Part shown: in pieces, positions 13,055 through 21,659 of the stretch
How the letters are laid out: each line of letters opens with the position of its first letter
How positions within the stretch are numbered: position 1 is the first letter of the stretch
Origin: Salibacter halophilus
GTDB taxonomy: Bacteria > Bacteroidota > Bacteroidia > Flavobacteriales_G > Salibacteraceae
Assembly: GCF_008806325.1 (NCBI RefSeq)
Contig: NZ_WACR01000007.1
Coordinates: 186,001 to 250,000, forward strand
Direction of reading: 5' to 3'
DNA length: 64,000 nt
Translations under genes and position numbers: made by a program
Notes under the pieces: generated by a model
What the model saw: only the letters and a program-made list of their open reading frames with translations
Database searches by the model: none
Told to the model about the DNA's origin: nothing

Positions 13055-13070
13055 GGTGATAATAGTCACA
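13055..13070 (+). promoter_or_regulatory. Candidate Crp/Fnr-type operator before SQR
   Basis: The sequence GTGA-TAATAG-TCAC (13056-13069) is a perfect GTGA-N6-TCAC dyad, the half-sites of a classical Crp-type operator. It lies about 50 bases before the SQR start and a Crp/Fnr regulator is encoded in the same island. The link to that regulator is inference. Confidence 0.45.
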
Positions 13071-13117
13071 GTAGCTTAGAAATGAGCTCTATAAATTCGC
13101 TCCAAACATTGTTAGCT

Positions 13118-14386
13118 ATGAAAGAACATCAAATTGTCATTATTGGAGGTGGAACAGCCGGAATTACGGTTGCGGCACAGCTCCTCAAAAAGGATAAATC
13201 GCTTGATATTGCGATTATTGAGCCTAGTGAAAAGCATTATTACCAACCTGCGTGGACTTTAGTTGGTGCAGGTACTTTTGATATGAAAAAGACTGAACGA
13301 ACTGAGGCTTCAGTCATGCCAGATGGTGTAAAATGGATTAAAGAATACGCTTCTGAAATTAATCCGGATGAAAACAAAGTTTCACTCAAAAACGGGGTCG
13401 TTGTAAAATACGAATACCTCATTGTTGCTCCCGGGTTGAGTATTGATTTAGATGGTGTTGAAGGATTGAGAGAGGCGATGGGGAAAGATGGCGTTTGTTC
13501 AAACTACATCGATCCCGAATATACCTGGGAGGTTCTTCAAAACTTTAAAGGAGGAAATGCACTTTTTACTCAACCTGCAACTCCTATTAAATGTGGTGGA
13601 GCTCCTCAAAAAATCATGTATCTGGCAGCTGAGTATTTCCAAAAACACGGACTGGCTGATAAAACCAATACCATTTTTGCGACTCCGGGGTCAGTGATTT
13701 TTGGGGTTAAAGAGTTTGCTAAAACGTTGATGAAAGTTGTGAATCGTCATAACATCGCGGTGAAGTATTTCCATAAGCTCTACAAGATTGACCCAAAAGA
13801 GAAAAAGGCATATTACAAACTCACGGCTACTGATGACAGCCAATGTGTATCGATCAATGATGATGACAACCGCGTAGGTGAAGAAGTGATTGGTGACGCT
13901 ACTATGGTCATTAAATATGGCATGCTGCATTTAGCACCACCACAAAAGTCTCCTGACTTTGTTGCGAAATCAAAAATCGCGCATCAGGAAGGCGGAAATA
14001 AAGGTTGGGCTGAGGTTGATCATCACACCCTTCAGAACCCCAACTACCCGAATGTTTTCGCACTAGGTGATGTGGCTGCTTTGCCAACCGCCAAAACTGG
14101 AGCAGCAGTTCGCAAGCAGGCTCCGGTCGTTACTGAGAATATTTTACACATGATCAAAAAGGAAAAGAAACTGAGCGATGCTTACCAGGGCTACTCTAGT
14201 TGTCCGCTCGTTACCGGTTATGGAAAAATGGTTCTGGCAGAGTTTGGTTATGGAAATAAACGAATGAGCGACCCACTCATTTCTAAATTCGTTGACGTTA
14301 CGAAAGAAAATTACAGTATGTGGTTATTGAAAAAGTACGGGTTACCCTACATGTACTGGAACTTGATGTTGAAAGGGAAAGCTTAA
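13118..14386 (+). CDS. sqr: Sulfide:quinone oxidoreductase (SQR)
   Basis: This FAD enzyme oxidises sulfide to polysulfide or persulfide and passes electrons to the quinone pool at the membrane. The N-terminal dinucleotide fold is VIIGGGTAGITVAAQL. Three cysteines typical of SQR are visible: C127 in GVCSNYID, C159 in PIKCGGAPQKI and C362 in SSCPLVTGYG. The C-terminal region ends with an amphipathic stretch (MWLLKKYGLPYMYWNLML) suited to membrane association. I prefer the ATG at 13118 because the FAD motif follows directly; an ATG at 13082 would add 12 residues. Cytochrome bd genes follow and could re-oxidise the quinol. Confidence 0.88.
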   Translation: MKEHQIVIIGGGTAGITVAAQLLKKDKSLDIAIIEPSEKHYYQPAWTLVGAGTFDMKKTERTEASVMPDGVKWIKEYASEINPDENKVSLKNGVVVKYEYLIVAPGLSIDLDGVEGLREAMGKDGVCSNYIDPEYTWEVLQNFKGGNALFTQPATPIKCGGAPQKIMYLAAEYFQKHGLADKTNTIFATPGSVIFGVKEFAKTLMKVVNRHNIAVKYFHKLYKIDPKEKKAYYKLTATDDSQCVSINDDDNRVGEEVIGDATMVIKYGMLHLAPPQKSPDFVAKSKIAHQEGGNKGWAEVDHHTLQNPNYPNVFALGDVAALPTAKTGAAVRKQAPVVTENILHMIKKEKKLSDAYQGYSSCPLVTGYGKMVLAEFGYGNKRMSDPLISKFVDVTKENYSMWLLKKYGLPYMYWNLMLKGKA

Positions 14387-14391
14387 AACTG

Positions 14392-14418
14392 AAGCCTCCG
14401 TTTGGAGGCTTTTTTTTA
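14392..14418 (+). terminator. Terminator between SQR and cydA
   Basis: The stem AAGCCTCC/GGAGGCTT with a four-base loop is followed by a run of T. It excludes the longer cydA start at 14402, which would lie inside the hairpin. Confidence 0.85.
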
Positions 14419-14440
14419 TTGTAATCGAAAAAAATGGATT

Positions 14441-15820
14441 ATGGATGTTGAAATATTAGCAAGAATTCAATTCGCTTTCACAGTTGCTTTCCACTACATA
14501 TATCCTCCGCTAAGTATAGGTTTAGGATTGTTGCTGGTGATTTTTGAAGGGATGTACATCAGAACCGGAAAGGATGTATATGAAAAACTCACCCGGTTTT
14601 GGATTAAGATTTTTGCATTGACATTTGGGATTGGTGTTGCTACCGGAATTGTCATGGAGTTTGAGTTTGGTACAAACTGGGCTACTTACTCGCGATATGT
14701 AGGTGATGTGTTTGGGAGTGCTCTCGCTGCTGAAGGTATTTTCGCTTTCGCTTTAGAGAGTGGTTTTTTAGGTATTTTATTATTCGGTTGGAATCGTGTA
14801 AAGCCATGGGTGCATATGGTTTCCACTGTTGGGGTGTTTTTGGGTTCGATGTTTTCAGCCGTTTGGATTGTTGTAGCAAATAGCTGGCAACAAACACCTG
14901 CCGGTTATCATATTGTAGGTAAAGGAATGAACGCCAGAGCTGAGATCACCGATTTTTGGGCGATGGTTTTCAATCCGTCATCAATGGACCGATTAACACA
15001 TGTTTGGATTGGTGCCTTCCTGGCCGGAGCTTTTTTGGTTCTGAGTGTACATGGTTACTACATCGTTAAGGGAAGGTATGTTGAGCTATCTAAAAAGGCA
15101 TTTAAGATTGCGCTTGTTGTTGCTACAGTCTTCAGTTTGGGGCAATTAGTTAGCGGCCACCAATCTGCTGATGGTGTAGCAGTCAATCAGCCCGCTAAAT
15201 TGGCAGCTATGGAAGGGCATTTTGAAAAAGAAGCTCCGGCAGATATGTATTTGTTTGGCTGGGTTGATAAGGAGGCTCAAAAAGTGAGAGGAATTAAGGT
15301 TCCGGGCGGATTGTCATTTTTAGTTCATCAGGATTTTTCCGCACCGATTAAAGGCATGAACGCAATACCTGAGGACGAGCGACCTGGTCAAATAAATGCA
15401 ATTTTTCAGTTTTATCACCTCATGGTTGCAATCGGGATGTTTTTAATCGCTTTAACGCTTTATGCATCTTTCCTGATGTGGCGCAAAAAGCTATTTGAGA
15501 AAAAATGGTTGATGGTTGTTTTTGTCTTTGCTGTTTTACTTCCTCAAATCGCGAATCAAATAGGCTGGTTTACTGCTGAGATGGGACGTCAACCCTGGGT
15601 AGTTTACGGACATCTAAAAACATCTGATGCACTTTCAAAGGCTGTAACAGCTAATCAGGTATTGTTTTCCCTGATTTTATTTTTCATCATTTATTTCATT
15701 CTGTTACTGCTGTTTTTGTACTTGCTCAATAAGAAAATTGTTCACGGTCCTTATGATGAAGAGGAACGTGACAACAGACCAAATCAAAGTGGAATGGCTA
15801 ATACCTTAATGACAGAATAA
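14441..15820 (+). CDS. cydA: Cytochrome bd ubiquinol oxidase subunit I
   Basis: Subunit I binds the b and d hemes and oxidises quinol while reducing oxygen to water. The start at 14441 ([20 protein letters not shown]) is the family's usual N-terminus, with the heme ligand histidine in FHYIYPP. Further typical segments are [28 protein letters not shown] and [15 protein letters not shown]. The 459 residues and short Q-loop region fit the short-Q-loop class. cydB follows after two bases. Terminal bd oxidases are known to tolerate sulfide, which gives a reason for the position next to SQR. Confidence 0.95.
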
Positions 15821-15822
15821 TT

Positions 15823-16860
15823 ATGGAGACATTTATAGGAATAGATTACGCTACGTGGTGGTTTTTAGTAGTAGGCGGACTTTTTTCAGGATATGCAATT
15901 CTAGATGGGTTTGATTTTGGTGCCGGAGCCTGGCATCTTTTCTTCAAAAAAGAGAAGAGCAGGAGAATTGCGCTCAATGCGATAGGTCCGGTTTGGGATG
16001 GGAATGAAGTGTGGCTCGTTATTGGGGGAGGAGCACTTTTTGCCGGCTTTCCGGTACTTTACGCTTCTCTGTTTTCAGCCATGTATATTCCATTCATGCT
16101 CTTTTTGGTTTTCATCATATTCAGAGCCGTATCCATCGAATTTAGGAGTAAAGAGGAAATGACCTGGTGGCGTAAAATGTGGGATTATTCATACAGTATT
16201 TCCAGTATCCTACTCGCCTTTTTATTAGGTGTTGTGCTGGGGAATGTACTGCAGGGAATCGCGATAGGTGAAAATTTTGAGTACGTTGGTGTTGGACTTG
16301 TTGAGTTTCTCAATCCTTACGCGATTATGGTTGGTGTAACAACCCTGGCTCTTTTCATGACACACGGAGCAATTTATCTCTTGCTCAAAACAGAAGGCAG
16401 GCTTTACGCTAAGTTGACTATTTTGTTGAAAAGAGGAATGATCTTTTTCATCGTGAGTTTTGCTGTTACTACACTTTATACACTGCTGTACATTCCGCAT
16501 TTGAGCGATAAATTCACCAATAACCCCGTTATGTTTGTGATTCCGCTTTTAGCCTTTTTGAGCATTGCAAACGTTCCGCGATTAGCAAGCAAGCGAAAGT
16601 ATCAATGGGCTTTCTTTTTCTCATCGCTCACGATGAGTTTGCTTTTGATAGTCGTTGCAATTGAGTTGTATCCAAATATACTGTTATCCACAGTTGATTC
16701 GGCATGGAACATTACAGTTTACAATGCTGCAGCTTCAGAGAAATCACTGGGCATTATGCTCACAATTGCTGCAATTGGAACACCTCTAGTACTGTTGTAC
16801 ACAGCGTTTGTTTACCGTACCTTTAGAGGCAAGGTCAAACTTGATGAAACGAGTTATTAA
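15823..16860 (+). CDS. cydB: Cytochrome bd ubiquinol oxidase subunit II
   Basis: Subunit II of the bd oxidase is an integral membrane protein of 345 residues with about nine helices. The family opening WWFLVVGGLFSGYAILDGFDFGAGAWHL is present, then GPVWDGNEVWLVIGGGALFAGFP. It starts two bases after cydA and its stop overlaps the start of the next gene by one base (TAATG), so the three form an operon. No CydX-type peptide was recognised. Confidence 0.95.
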   Translation: METFIGIDYATWWFLVVGGLFSGYAILDGFDFGAGAWHLFFKKEKSRRIALNAIGPVWDGNEVWLVIGGGALFAGFPVLYASLFSAMYIPFMLFLVFIIFRAVSIEFRSKEEMTWWRKMWDYSYSISSILLAFLLGVVLGNVLQGIAIGENFEYVGVGLVEFLNPYAIMVGVTTLALFMTHGAIYLLLKTEGRLYAKLTILLKRGMIFFIVSFAVTTLYTLLYIPHLSDKFTNNPVMFVIPLLAFLSIANVPRLASKRKYQWAFFFSSLTMSLLLIVVAIELYPNILLSTVDSAWNITVYNAAASEKSLGIMLTIAAIGTPLVLLYTAFVYRTFRGKVKLDETSY

Positions 16861-17081
16861 TGCAAGATGTAGGCAAAATCTTAATGATAGTAGCGGTGCT
16901 TCTCCTCATAGTGGGAGCACTGCTTTTCTTTTTGGGAGATAAATTGTCATGGCTTGGCAATTTGCCCGGTGATATTAGAATAGAAAGGGAAAATGTGAAA
17001 ATCTACATTCCCATAACGACAATGATATTGCTGAGTGTTGTTCTATCTGCAATTATTTGGCTTTTAAGGAAGTTGGGGTAG
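16860..17081 (+). CDS. DUF2905 small membrane protein
   Basis: This 73-residue protein has two hydrophobic helices separated by LSWLGNLPGDIRIERENVKIYIP, the DUF2905 hallmark. The biochemical role of the family is unknown. It is translationally coupled to cydB through a one-base overlap. The position suggests a membrane accessory protein but nothing in the sequence shows that it belongs to the bd oxidase. Confidence 0.85.
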   Translation: MQDVGKILMIVAVLLLIVGALLFFLGDKLSWLGNLPGDIRIERENVKIYIPITTMILLSVVLSAIIWLLRKLG

Positions 17082-17094
17082 TAGTAATCAAACT

Positions 17095-17125
17095 AAAAAA
17101 AGCAGGCTCTGGTCAGAGCCTGCTT
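17095..17125 (-). terminator. Terminator of the YeeE operon, built from a GGNTCTGACC motif
   Basis: A near-perfect hairpin (AAGCAGGCTCTG / CAGAGCCTGCTT) is followed on the minus strand by seven T, so it ends the minus-strand sulfur operon. The exact motif copy GGTCAGAGCC (17111-17120) forms the loop and right arm. Uptake sequences in Neisseria are also often found in terminator hairpins. Confidence 0.85.
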
Positions 17126-17147
17126 ACACAGCTAAACAACCCGGTTT

Positions 17148-17561
17148 TTAATGCGGCAATTTGTGACGCAATAAACCGTAAACGAATGTCCCTAATAATG
17201 CACCAAAAATCACGAGCAAGATGAGCCAGTAGCCTCTACCCAACAACAGGTACATCGGTCCAGGGCAGGCACCTGCCATCGCCCAGCCTAATCCAAAGAA
17301 GGTTCCGCCTATCAAATAGCGGGCAACACTTTTATTTTTTGGATTAAATGTGATGAGTTGGCCTTCTATACTCTTTACTTTTTTGCTTTTGATATATTGT
17401 ACAATGATGATTCCCAGCACAACTGCAGATCCTATGATTCCATACATATGGAAAGAATCGAAATAGAACATTTCAATAATTCGGTACCAGGAAACAACCT
17501 GCCCTTTTGTGAGAGCAATTCCAAAAATGACTCCTATTCCTAAAAACTTCAAGTATTTCAT
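17148..17561 (-). CDS. YeeE/YedE half-transporter (DUF6691)
   Basis: This 137-residue membrane protein has four hydrophobic segments and the motif FGLGWAMAGACPGPMYLL, with the conserved cysteine found in the YeeE/YedE family. Full-length YeeE (TsuA) imports thiosulfate through a cysteine relay. Here the transporter is split into two proteins, this one and its upstream neighbour, which start 18 bases apart. The pair probably moves thiosulfate or another sulfane-sulfur compound. It is the last gene of the minus-strand sulfur operon. Confidence 0.85.
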   Translation of the reverse strand: MKYLKFLGIGVIFGIALTKGQVVSWYRIIEMFYFDSFHMYGIIGSAVVLGIIIVQYIKSKKVKSIEGQLITFNPKNKSVARYLIGGTFFGLGWAMAGACPGPMYLLLGRGYWLILLVIFGALLGTFVYGLLRHKLPH

Positions 17562-17579: not shown

Positions 17580-18188
17580 TTAAAATGGTAAGATATGTGG
17601 TAGTATGTAGTACGTCATTGCCATACCGCCAATGAAGAATCCAATTACTGCAATGAGTGACGGCAGTTGGAGGTTGGCCAATCCGCTTATTGCGTGACCG
17701 GATGTACATCCACCGGCATAACGTGCTCCAAATCCAACGAGGAAACCGGCAACTATGAGGTAAGCTACGGTTCCGACCGTGATTTCTTCAGGATCAAAAA
17801 TCTGTGACGGCAAGTAGGACTCTCCAATATTGGTCAGACCCATATCCCGCATGTTTTCAACGGTTGATGAAGCGAGAGCAACAGTGTGATCAGCCTCCAA
17901 GAACATGTAAGAAATAAAACCGCCAATAACACCACCTCCAACAAAGATGAGGTTCCATTTTTGCGAGCGCCAATCCCAGTGAAAAAACTCGGAGAATTTT
18001 TGTGCTCCTGCCGCGCTACAGGCAACCCTGAGCGTGTTTGAAACGCCAAATTCCTTCCCGAAATAAAGCAGGAGAAACATGGTTAAAGCAATTAGAGGGC
18101 CCACTACATACCAGGGCCATGGTTGCAAAATAAAATCCATAATTTGATTTGTTTGGTTTGTGAAATCAAAAGATAAGTGCTCCGCCAC
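17580..18188 (-). CDS. YeeE/YedE half-transporter
   Basis: This 202-residue membrane protein has about five helices and the YeeE motif GFGARYAGGCTSGHAISGLA, with the relay cysteine. It complements the smaller half encoded just downstream. In the family such proteins carry thiosulfate or related sulfur species across the inner membrane. It is preceded by a rhodanese gene and belongs to the same sulfur cluster. A motif copy (GGTCAGACCC, 17832-17841) is the only one with G at the variable position when read as GGNTCTGACC. Confidence 0.87.
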   Translation of the reverse strand: MAEHLSFDFTNQTNQIMDFILQPWPWYVVGPLIALTMFLLLYFGKEFGVSNTLRVACSAAGAQKFSEFFHWDWRSQKWNLIFVGGGVIGGFISYMFLEADHTVALASSTVENMRDMGLTNIGESYLPSQIFDPEEITVGTVAYLIVAGFLVGFGARYAGGCTSGHAISGLANLQLPSLIAVIGFFIGGMAMTYYILPHILPF

Positions 18189-18253: not shown

Positions 18254-18607
18254 TTATTGGACTGCGACCTCTCCGCGCCAGCTCACAATTCCGCCTTGTA
18301 GATTCGTTACATCATCAAAGCCAGAGTTGGTCATGATGTTGCAGGCATTGAAGCTTCTCGCTCCACTGCGGCAATACACGAGGTACTTTTTAGATTTATC
18401 CAGTTTTTGTAATTCGCTTTGGAATGCGGGATCCTGCAAGTTGAGGTTCACCGCATTTGGTATGTGTCCTGACTCAAACTCGCCCGGGGTTCTGACATCG
18501 ATCAGAACCGCATCGGGGTTGTTTTGAATCTCTTTTTCGAATGCATGTGCATTGATATTCTCAAACATGATATTTCCTCCTAATAATTTTTTTAAAAATC
18601 CTAACAT
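18254..18607 (-). CDS. Single-domain rhodanese
   Basis: A 117-residue rhodanese-fold sulfurtransferase with the active-site loop CRSGARS near residue 90 and the conserved IDVRTPGEFESGHIPNAVNL. It would carry sulfane sulfur as a cysteine persulfide. The N-terminal MLGFLKKLLGG prefix resembles other Bacteroidota rhodaneses, so I keep the ATG at 18607, although a second ATG at 18568 follows a GGAGG sequence. It starts three bases after the end of the MBL-rhodanese gene. Confidence 0.9.
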   Translation of the reverse strand: MLGFLKKLLGGNIMFENINAHAFEKEIQNNPDAVLIDVRTPGEFESGHIPNAVNLNLQDPAFQSELQKLDKSKKYLVYCRSGARSFNACNIMTNSGFDDVTNLQGGIVSWRGEVAVQ

Positions 18608-18610
18608 GGC

Positions 18611-20026
18611 TTACAGCATTGTTGAAGGACAAACGTATTCGCTGGTTTTCATGCCTGCTTCCTGTATGGCGTCAAAACCACCTTCAATATTCACGAGATC
18701 ATGATAACCTCTCGACTTGAGAATAGAAGCTGTGATCATTGAGCGGTATCCGCCAGCACAGTGTAAATACATTTCTTTTCCTTGTGAATATTCTTCCATT
18801 CTGTCGTTGATGAAATCGAGCGGAATATTGCGAACATTCTTTCCTTCAATGTGCTGTGATTTGTATTCGCTCTCTTTACGAACATCAACCACTTCTTCTA
18901 CTTTTCCTTCTTCGAATGCTTTTTTGAATTCTTCAGCACTTACTGATTTTACACTGTCACATTCTTTTCCTGAAGCTTTCCAGTTTTCATAACCGCCTTT
19001 CAGGTATCCCAGTGTGTTGTCATAACCTACACGTGAAAGACGCGTAACGGCTTCCTCTTCACGACCTTTCTCTGTGATGAGAACAATTTTTTGGTTCAGA
19101 TCCGGAATAAGCGTTCCTACCCAAACCGCAAAACTGCCGTCAAGCCCGATGAAAATAGAGTTTGGAACGTGTCCTTCAGCGTAAGCTTCAGGAGAACGTA
19201 CATCTAACATGATAGCTCCTTCAGCATTTACTACATCTTCAAATGTGTCAGGATCTAGAGCTACGTTCCCTTTTTCGAGGACTTCATCAAAACTGCCGTA
19301 CCCTTTTTTGTTCATTACAGCATTTTTAGGGAAGTACTGTGGTGGAGGCACCAGGCCTTCAGTAACCTGTTTTACAAACTCTTCTTTTGTCATATCTTGA
19401 AGAGCATAGTTCGTTTTCTTTTGGTTACCCAGTGTGTCAGTAGTTTCAGAACTCATGTTTTTACCACAAGCTGATCCTGCACCGTGACCCGGGTAAACAG
19501 TTAAGTTATCTTCCAGAGGAAGTATTTTGTTGTGAAGTGATTCGTACAGATGTCCTGCAAGATCTTCACGAGATAAATCTGTTTTCACAGCTAAGTCTGG
19601 TCGGCCAACATCTCCGATGAATAAAGTGTCACCGGTGAAAATAGCTTTGTTGTTGCCATCTTCATCAATGAGGAGGTAAGTTGTTGATTCCATCGTGTGC
19701 CCGGGTGTGTGGAGCACTTTGATCTTCACGTCACCAACTTCAAGGATCTCATCATCTTTAGCGATGTGCGCATCGTATTCCGGTTTAGCGTTTGGTCCAA
19801 ATACAATCTCAGCTCCTGTTTTCTTTGCCAGGTCAAGGTGTCCTGAAACGAAATCTGCGTGGAAATGTGTTTCCAGTACGTATTTGATTTTTGCGCCTTC
19901 TTCTTCAGCTTTTTTGATGTAAGGCTCAGTCTCACGAAGCGGGTCAATAATTACTGCTTCGTCTTTTGATTGAATGTAATAAGCACCTTGTGCGAGACAT
20001 CCTGTATAGATCTGTTCTACTTTCAT
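18611..20026 (-). CDS. Persulfide dioxygenase-type MBL fold protein with two rhodanese domains (CstB-like)
   Basis: The N-terminal metallo-beta-lactamase domain (about 1-230) has THFHADFVSGH, HTPGHTMEST and GDTLFIGDVGRPDL, the ETHE1/persulfide dioxygenase pattern. Two rhodanese domains follow. In the first (about 265-350) the usual catalytic cysteine loop is replaced by ITEKGREEEA, so it looks inactive. In the second (about 365-460) the loop YLHCAGGYRS keeps the cysteine. This dioxygenase, pseudo-rhodanese, rhodanese order matches CstB of Staphylococcus aureus, which oxidises persulfides to thiosulfate. It should act on the product of SQR. Confidence 0.88.
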   Translation of the reverse strand: MKVEQIYTGCLAQGAYYIQSKDEAVIIDPLRETEPYIKKAEEEGAKIKYVLETHFHADFVSGHLDLAKKTGAEIVFGPNAKPEYDAHIAKDDEILEVGDVKIKVLHTPGHTMESTTYLLIDEDGNNKAIFTGDTLFIGDVGRPDLAVKTDLSREDLAGHLYESLHNKILPLEDNLTVYPGHGAGSACGKNMSSETTDTLGNQKKTNYALQDMTKEEFVKQVTEGLVPPPQYFPKNAVMNKKGYGSFDEVLEKGNVALDPDTFEDVVNAEGAIMLDVRSPEAYAEGHVPNSIFIGLDGSFAVWVGTLIPDLNQKIVLITEKGREEEAVTRLSRVGYDNTLGYLKGGYENWKASGKECDSVKSVSAEEFKKAFEEGKVEEVVDVRKESEYKSQHIEGKNVRNIPLDFINDRMEEYSQGKEMYLHCAGGYRSMITASILKSRGYHDLVNIEGGFDAIQEAGMKTSEYVCPSTML

Positions 20027-20069: not shown

Positions 20070-20882
20070 TTACCCAAATGTGTCAATAGCTCGCTCAATC
20101 ATGATGTAAACTCCCATGATGAGGACAAACCATCCAAAAGCAGGCTTCAGCTTTTCGCCTGATACTTTATTCGATAAAGCACTTCCTATGAAAATTCCGA
20201 TTACTGCAATTCCCGAGAAAATCAGCAGGAATGTCCAGTCGATATCCATGTTGCCAATGTCACCGGTAAAGCCGATTAAACTTTTTGTGGCGATGATCAG
20301 GAGTGATGTTCCCACTGCTTCTTTCATTGGAAGCTTTGATAGTACTACCAGTGCAGGAATAATGAGGAATCCTCCGCCAGCACCAACGAGGCCGGTTAAG
20401 GTTCCGACCACGATACCTTCTAATATGATTAGTGGGTAATTGAATTTCTGCTCTCCGTCATTTTCAACTTTAGGAGCTTTTCTTCCTCTGATCATTGAGA
20501 TAGAAGCAGCGATCATCAGTGCTGCAAAAAGCACCATAATACCCAAATCTTTAGTGATTGGAGTATCTCCCATTGAAAACATGACATCAGGGATTGAGGG
20601 AACCAGGAATTTTCGGGTTGCGTAAACTGCTGCAATGGATGGAATACCAAACACTACTGCTGTTTTGACGTTGACGAGCCCTTTTTTAAAGTAGGTCCCC
20701 GTACCCACTAAACTCGATAGTCCAACTATGAATAATGAATAAGCTGTCGCTTCAACAGGGTCAGATCCCAATAAGTAAACGAGAACCGGAACTGTTAAAA
20801 TGGATCCGCCTCCACCGATTAATCCTAGTGAAATTCCTATTACTGCTGCTGCGATGTAACCGAGTACTGTGAGTATTTCCAT
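20070..20882 (-). CDS. TauE/SafE-family sulfur-anion exporter
   Basis: This 270-residue membrane protein of about eight helices has the duplicated glycine motifs of the family: GISLGLIGGGGSILTVPVLVYLLG near the N-terminus and GTLTGLVGAGGGFLIIPALV in the middle. Members export sulfite, sulfoacetate or related anions. As first gene of the sulfur operon it may remove sulfite or thiosulfate made by the dioxygenase. Candidate operator sequences lie between it and the Crp/Fnr gene. A GGATCTGACC motif lies on its sense strand (20759-20768). Confidence 0.9.
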   Translation of the reverse strand: MEILTVLGYIAAAVIGISLGLIGGGGSILTVPVLVYLLGSDPVEATAYSLFIVGLSSLVGTGTYFKKGLVNVKTAVVFGIPSIAAVYATRKFLVPSIPDVMFSMGDTPITKDLGIMVLFAALMIAASISMIRGRKAPKVENDGEQKFNYPLIILEGIVVGTLTGLVGAGGGFLIIPALVVLSKLPMKEAVGTSLLIIATKSLIGFTGDIGNMDIDWTFLLIFSGIAVIGIFIGSALSNKVSGEKLKPAFGWFVLIMGVYIMIERAIDTFG

Positions 20883-20932
20883 GTTTTAATAATTTGTTGG
20901 TACAAAAGTACCTTGAGGAAGAATAGCTCACA

Positions 20933-20946
20933 GTAACAAAAATCAC
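20933..20946 (-). promoter_or_regulatory. Candidate Crp/Fnr operator before TauE
   Basis: The minus strand reads GTGA-TTTTTG-TTAC, one change from the GTGA-N6-TCAC dyad found before SQR. It lies about 50 bases before the TauE start. Confidence 0.3.
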
Positions 20947-20966
20947 ATATGCTTTTTGCTATATGT
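20947..20966. promoter_or_regulatory. Operator-like 20-mer, copy 1 (TauE side)
   Basis: ATATGCTTTTTGCTATATGT is 17/20 identical to a second copy at 21640-21659 before the Crp/Fnr gene. It has partial dyad symmetry (ATATGC...GCTATAT). Both copies lie just upstream of genes of the same cluster, so it may be the operator of an autoregulating sulfur regulator. Confidence 0.4.
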
Positions 20967-20978
20967 GTAGTTTGCTAT

Positions 20979-21617
20979 TTACTCTATCAGCTCTATTTGA
21001 TTGCGTGATAATTTTACGAGCCCTTTCTTCTCTAGTTGTTTCAGAAGTCTGGAAATTACCTCGCGAGAAGTGTTGAGTTCGTAGGCAATTGTTTGATGTG
21101 TGCCTTTGATAATATTAGATCCTGTGGCCTCAGTTGCTTTTTCCAAATATTCAATGAGGCGCTCATCCATTTTGTGAAAAGCGATGCTGTCGATTGTTTC
21201 GAGCAATTCATCGATTCTGTCGTTATAGGTTCTGATCACGAACTGATACCAGGAGCGGTAATTGCGGATAAAGTGTTCCATAAGGTCGACAGGGATCATG
21301 ACAATTTCAGAATCTTCAAGGGCGACAGCTTTTACTTTGCTCTTTTTGTTTCCCATCGTGCAGACAAGACTTACCGCACAGGCTTCACCGGGGTAGAGGT
21401 AGTAGAGCAATAACTCATTGGCCTCTTCATCTTCTCTAAACACTTTTATTTTTCCGTTCGTTACGAGCGGAATTGACCTTATATATGATCCTACATCGAG
21501 GAGAGATTCGTCTTTTTTGATTTTCTTACATATTCCTTTCTCCGCTATTTCTTGCTTGAGTTCAGGTTCTGAAAATAGTGGGAAACGCTGATTGATAATA
21601 TCAATATTGACAGGCAT
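20979..21617 (-). CDS. Crp/Fnr-family transcriptional regulator
   Basis: From the ATG at 21617 the protein is 212 residues: a cyclic-nucleotide-binding-type beta-roll (about 1-120), a dimer helix (about 125-150) and a C-terminal winged helix with the recognition helix TSREVISRLLKQLEKKGLV. Arginine ligands for cAMP are not obvious. Two cysteines, C80 and C86 in PGEACAVSLVC, sit in the sensor domain, where a thiol-based sulfur response is conceivable. The gene precedes the TauE operon on the same strand and probably controls it. The upstream frame to 21704 lacks a domain match and runs over the operator-like site, so it is rejected. Confidence 0.88.
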   Translation of the reverse strand: MPVNIDIINQRFPLFSEPELKQEIAEKGICKKIKKDESLLDVGSYIRSIPLVTNGKIKVFREDEEANELLLYYLYPGEACAVSLVCTMGNKKSKVKAVALEDSEIVMIPVDLMEHFIRNYRSWYQFVIRTYNDRIDELLETIDSIAFHKMDERLIEYLEKATEATGSNIIKGTHQTIAYELNTSREVISRLLKQLEKKGLVKLSRNQIELIE

Positions 21618-21639
21618 AGATAAATATTTTGGAGTACAA

Positions 21640-21659
21640 ATATAGTTTTTGCTATACGT
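21640..21659. promoter_or_regulatory. Operator-like 20-mer, copy 2 (Crp/Fnr side)
   Basis: ATATAGTTTTTGCTATACGT lies 22 bases before the regulator's ATG and differs at three positions from the copy before the TauE gene. Confidence 0.4.

Follow-up and report, generated by a model that had tools for sequence, protein, structure and literature searches.

Which DNA element does a Crp/Fnr-family regulator encoded beside a set of sulfur genes use to control them? The window, the whole 64,000-nucleotide stretch of DNA analysed here, belongs to a 3.12-Mb Bacteroidota genome whose nearest named relatives among the loci compared are Flavobacteriales/Cryomorphaceae metagenome-assembled genomes. The regulator gene (crp, minus strand, 20979–21617) encodes 212 amino acids and is divergent from the trigger factor gene tig. 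Downstream on the same strand lies an operon that begins with a TauE/SafE-family exporter (tauE, 20070–20882) and continues with a persulfide dioxygenase-like protein combining an MBL fold with two rhodanese domains (PDO, 18611–20026), a single-domain rhodanese (18254–18607) and two YeeE/YedE sulfur transport halves (17580–18188 and 17148–17561, the latter DUF6691). On the plus strand, a sulfide:quinone oxidoreductase-like gene (SQR, 13118–14386) is immediately followed by cydA and cydB, which encode cytochrome bd oxidase (14402–16860), and SQR and cydAB probably share one transcript. The position of cydAB 3′ of SQR fits a sulfide regulon because sulfide-induced genes include cytochrome bd, according to PMC7315123. 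A short open frame (16860–17083) lies immediately 3′ of cydB, and an inverted repeat at about 17100–17126, between the two convergent operons, has by eye the look of a two-way terminator.

The first-pass annotation had pointed to an operator-like 20-mer shared by the tauE and crp promoters, which, as the regulator's own operator, would serve tauE activation and crp autoregulation. The two 20-mers stand where they had been placed (ATATGCTTTTTGCTATATGT at 20947–20966 and ATATAGTTTTTGCTATACGT at 21640–21659), each occurring once, and they are identical at 17 of 20 positions. In the whole genome, a degenerate pattern spanning both found these two places only, with up to two mismatches allowed. Dinucleotide-preserving shuffles of the two gaps (96 and 169 bp; 70% and 76% A+T) reached at least 17/20 in 18 of 2,000 pairs (p of about 0.01, uncorrected for the choice of the element by eye), and the resemblance thus mildly exceeds that of shuffled gaps. 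Across 35 family genomes, a pattern covering both forms occurred at 45 places versus about 36 for the control (summed), including three in the window's own genome, two of which are these 20-mers. The 20-mer is missing before SQR and PDO, where a palindrome stands instead. With neither a family-wide excess nor a copy before SQR or PDO, the 20-mer was rejected as a regulon-wide operator.

The two copies also fared differently in related genomes that keep the gene order: the crp-side copy is absent from eight relatives, whereas the tauE-side copy is conserved in four genomes. The crp-side 20-mer (ACGTATAGCAAAAACTATAT, minus strand, 21640–21659) overlaps the crp −7 box (TATATTTG, minus strand, 21637–21644), to which five of its bases (21640–21644) belong, and the crp upstream regions of the eight relatives, among them two congeners as well as the crp–tauE genomes G005 and G028, gave best matches of only 11–14/20. 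Moreover, the placement of the element relative to the core promoter differs between tauE and crp. A single operator at both promoters is therefore very improbable, even though the 17/20 identity, the conservation of the tauE copy and a profile built from three relatives' tauE elements, by which the crp copy comes fourth among about 128,000 positions in the window, all speak for it. We somewhat favour a chance resemblance in A+T-rich DNA at crp, aided by the TATAT of the −7 box as its right end; the copy is not conserved, and the p of about 0.01 is a value before correction for choice by eye. Against chance, the copy agrees with 11 of the 13 columns that are invariant in the tauE elements (counted by eye). 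The crp-side 20-mer would then be a lineage-specific resemblance lying across the −7 box, perhaps by chance, and control by the regulator probably does not run through the shared 20-mer.

Of the two site types that the first-pass annotation had distinguished, the regulator does seem to use one, the classical GTGA-N6-TCAC palindrome; the other type may belong to something else. The tauE operator (GTGATTTTTGTTAC, minus strand, 20933–20946) is the imperfect copy described earlier, with one mismatch to GTGA-N6-TCAC and none to GTRAYNNNNRTYAC. The perfect palindrome before SQR (GTGATAATAGTCAC, plus strand) is also real, at 13056–13069 rather than at 13055–13070, an interval one base too long at each end. 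Both operators belong to a composite site in which the palindrome GTRAYNNNNRTYAC is followed after 22 nt by TAnnTTTG, a Bacteroidota −7 promoter motif according to PMC6414381. The tauE −7 box (TACTTTTG, minus strand, 20903–20910) matches this motif exactly and the SQR −7 box (TAAATTCG, plus strand, 13092–13099) matches it with one mismatch, each lying 22 nt downstream of its operator. The SQR box lies beyond the first in-frame ATG at 13082, and so the true SQR start is probably the ATG at 13118, downstream of the predicted box.

For relatives of crp, tauE, PDO and SQR, upstream regions were taken from the family genomes and from public genomes (38 loci), merging identical sequences and leaving out those shorter than 120 nt; several near-identical strains remain, so the following counts are not independent. 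Operator and box together stood before PDO in 31 of 48 regions, before TauE in 26 of 28 and before SQR in 5 of 6 (62/82 together), with shuffled-sequence means of 0.2, 0.05 and 0.05, respectively. Some PDO genes of that set, including the one in the window, sit within operons led by tauE, which lowers the PDO rate. The same arrangement was found before 2 of 21 rhodanese genes and before none of the tig (0/6), clpP (0/6) or YeeE2 (0/14) regions. It was likewise missing from all 67 crp upstream regions; in the window, no operator lies 22 nt upstream of the crp −7 box and only two 3-mismatch sites were found, and crp autoregulation through the palindrome was rejected. When best sites were chosen blind to the box, 56 of 68 had it at exactly 22 nt, with no more than four at any other spacing. 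A fixed distance of this kind, with a site that overlaps the −35/−33 region, is what defines class II CRP-dependent promoters, and the predicted promoters here conform to it. A list of 69 regions scoring 3 or better was selected on the site itself, and no rate was drawn from it. By itself, GTGANNNNNNTCACNGT is too short, matching 204 places with at most one mismatch versus 161 for the control, and at three mismatches the composite is mostly noise (408 versus 322).

The tauE-side 20-mer (ACATATAGCAAAAAGCATAT, minus strand, 20947–20966) lies directly upstream of the operator. Four genomes from three genera share this tauE promoter (the window genome, G029, G005 and G028), and among them 10 of 14 operator columns and 13 of 20 columns of the adjoining element are invariant, whereas the spacer has 1 of 22 and the two 20-nt stretches farther upstream have 1/20 and 0/20. 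Given 13/20 versus 1/22 in the spacer, the 20-mer at tauE is a truly conserved block, roughly ATATA-N8-CATAT, that touches the operator. We regard it as a candidate accessory element and, tentatively and with somewhat less than even confidence, as a real second site, used either by a different transcription factor or by the RNA polymerase α C-terminal domain beside the operator. At class II promoters α contacts DNA upstream of the operator, which is where this 20-mer lies; we know of no factor that recognizes it. Counting against a second site, the element is confined to the crp–tauE genomes of g1, g4 and g12, and the other operators do not carry it. A+T content next to those operators is only slightly raised (0.65–0.66 versus 0.61–0.62 farther upstream), which makes a general α site weak, and a general A+T-rich UP element was rejected on the same figures.

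Among 197 genomes of the class, the 120 with a homologue of the regulator encoded next to tauE (E ≤ 1e-30) held 465 composite sites versus 145 for the control, whereas the 77 without one held 97 versus 89 (Mann–Whitney 6e-14, uncorrected for kinship). Within the 19 families of mixed content, the observed difference was reached by 1 of 5,000 label permutations, and 14 of the 19 pointed in the same direction. At the order level, the corresponding counts were 124 versus 36 in 25 genomes with a homologue and 4 versus 3 in the four without. Four genomes called crp-less (G080, G116, G148 and G153) nonetheless have five to seven composite sites each; a homologue that misses the 1e-30 threshold may be present in them, or the regulator may have diverged or be lacking from the assembly. 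Another genome without a close homologue (G031, L126) has a one-mismatch site before PDO, GTGACAATTATAAC followed after 23 nt by TACATTTG, which may have decayed or may be read by another protein.

Another reader is conceivable more generally, since the E. coli CRP consensus is also GTGA-N6-TCAC and the window's genome encodes three Crp-type proteins above the Pfam helix-turn-helix cut-off. The neighbouring regulator is the only one of them with the full R-E-x-x-x-R contact set; the other two lack one or two of these residues, and assignment of the site to either was rejected on this ground. Because site numbers also track homologues of this regulator across genomes, within families too, we consider it very unlikely that another Crp-type protein, or a true cAMP-CRP, is the one that reads the palindromes.

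The regulator itself is a member of the Crp/Fnr superfamily (PF00027, 36.2 bits against a cut-off of 27.5; PF13545, 40.6 against 27; PF00325, 21.6 against 21), and it falls far below the cut-offs of the CRP and Fnr equivalogs (NF008732, 49 against 266 bits; NF008365, 32.9 against 228). In its recognition helix, TSREVISRLLK, we take R, E and R to occupy the positions of CRP R180, E181 and R185. An alignment of 62 distinct proteins, out of 64 longer than 190 amino acids, has R185 in 62/62, E186 in 55/62 and R190 in 62/62, consistent with CRP-type DNA recognition. The only cysteines of the regulator are Cys30, Cys80 and Cys86, and an FNR-type N-terminal [4Fe–4S] cysteine cluster is missing. Cys80 is present in all 62 aligned relatives and Cys86 in 57, and this conservation makes a thiol-based persulfide sensor plausible. 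The two residues form a Cys-x5-Cys in a stretch whose aligned counterparts are the cAMP-binding cassette in 4ev0 and a similar C-x5-C in 3dv8. The stretch aligned to the Arg-Ser phosphate-binding cassette reads GEACAVSLVCTMGNKKSK, with Lys in place of Arg in an alignment that is gapped. A predicted model of the regulator, confident at the residue level (pLDDT 87.9, pTM 0.64), has 3dv8 and 4ev0 as its best fold matches.

In the window's own genome, the composite pattern with one mismatch allowed occurs at nine places, versus one for the reversed control. The genes 3′ of these sites encode SQR, TauE, a second PDO, a thioredoxin, an azurin-type copper protein, a TlpA-like redoxin and two proteins without a Pfam match, a small Cys-bearing membrane protein and a kelch-like secreted protein; the ninth site lies within an open frame, is followed by no clear gene and may be chance. 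The second PDO, a paralogue 38% identical to the first, carries a composite site of its own immediately upstream (L104, G000:C5:211270-211313, minus strand). Look-alikes, judged by eye, follow sites in other genomes: those of the small Cys protein in G024 and G026, those of the kelch-like protein in G014, G018 and G021. Taken as types without a Pfam match, kelch-like secreted proteins (none over the cut-off) were seen behind composite sites in four genomes (L100, L160, L162 and L164) and small membrane proteins with a Cys-x3-Cys stretch in three (L103, L169 and L173).

Among family and order genomes, 19 of the 37 consensus sites that were followed precede a gene with a sulfur- or thiol-related Pfam domain or SQR. 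The first genes among those 19 most often encode a rhodanese domain (eight) or a YgaP-like membrane domain (five), with one each for SQR, a molybdopterin oxidoreductase, a SoxA/TsdA-type cytochrome, a sulfate permease, a thioredoxin and an AhpC/TSA peroxiredoxin. The other 18 include genes for a methyltransferase, POR, a 3-hydroxyacyl-CoA dehydrogenase, DUF302, DUF983 and cytochromes c, and several without a match. The robust regulon is reached through the neighbour of the 20-mer, not through the 20-mer itself.

Together, our results make it likely that the sulfur-regulon operator is GTRAYNNNNRTYAC, standing 22 nt before TAnnTTTG, and that it is read by the Crp/Fnr protein encoded at 20979–21617 as a class II activator. 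The operator, its fixed spacing, the gene content and the co-occurrence with the regulator are computed results, and from sequence we infer binding, activation and gating at Cys80/Cys86. Counted from the first T of the −7 box, the bound dimer would be centred about 29.5 bp upstream, as far from its promoter box as the class II CRP sites of E. coli, which are centred at −41.5. Because the spacing is fixed, an activator touching RNA polymerase is suggested; it is solely the spacing that points to activation, a repressor being the alternative. Predicted targets are tauE–PDO–rhodanese–YeeE and SQR–cydAB in the window and, elsewhere in the genome, the second PDO, the thioredoxin, the TlpA-like protein and azurin. 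On our best reading, the regulator switches on a sulfide/persulfide-handling regulon as a class II activator and may well be gated by the thiols of Cys80 and Cys86. The conserved cysteines and the target genes suggest gating by persulfides, through persulfidation or polysulfide bridging of the two residues in the cAMP-cassette stretch, and we rate sensing by the regulator's cysteines at about even. Placing a Cys-x5-Cys in the nucleotide pocket would be a simple way for a CRP fold to become a sulfur sensor.

Bacteroidota are abundant in the gut, in sediment and in the sea, and many have SQR and persulfide dioxygenase genes; the operator, the spacing rule and the regulator together define a regulon that is directly testable at the bench. 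The chances are evenly balanced that the regulator represents a previously undescribed class of sulfide/persulfide sensors, Crp/Fnr-fold activators in which Cys-x5-Cys replaces the cAMP cassette and which are switched on by persulfidation or a polysulfide bridge rather than by a nucleotide. Such a class would have homologues in 120 of the 197 sampled genomes and would command a large class II regulon of SQR, PDO, rhodaneses, YgaP-like membrane proteins, thioredoxins, and sulfate and sulfite handling.

A literature search, which reached mostly papers outside subscription, could not handle slashed names and is weak for both reasons, returned no published precedent for a Crp/Fnr regulator of SQR/PDO in Bacteroidota. 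As described in PMC7315123, the Crp-family protein Crp of A. baumannii accepts sulfane sulfur at a cysteine and is persulfidated in sulfide-exposed cells; unlike the present regulator, it is 50% identical to E. coli Crp, and the same paper gives its effect and ligand as unknown. A Eubacterium rectale Crp/Fnr regulator with the same C-x5-C in the aligned stretch, 3dv8, is both the best match by sequence (1.2e-22) and the first by fold, although identity is 27% and the PDB title names no function. HcpR of Porphyromonas gingivalis, which presumably governs another regulon, is likewise a Bacteroidota Crp/Fnr-fold regulator, with 17% identity in the fold alignment (9day). E. coli CRP at class II promoters shares GTGA-N6-TCAC, a centre about 29.5 bp from the first base of a −10-like box and the R, E and R contacts, but here the box is TAnnTTTG, a Cys-x5-Cys appears to stand in place of an intact cAMP cassette and the targets are sulfur genes rather than those of carbon catabolism. 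The persulfide sensors CstR, SqrR/BigR and FisR are, by their family assignments, not of the Crp/Fnr fold. According to PMC7315123, these sensors, CstR being a repressor, control SQR/PDO-type genes through reactive cysteines, as the regulator described here would.
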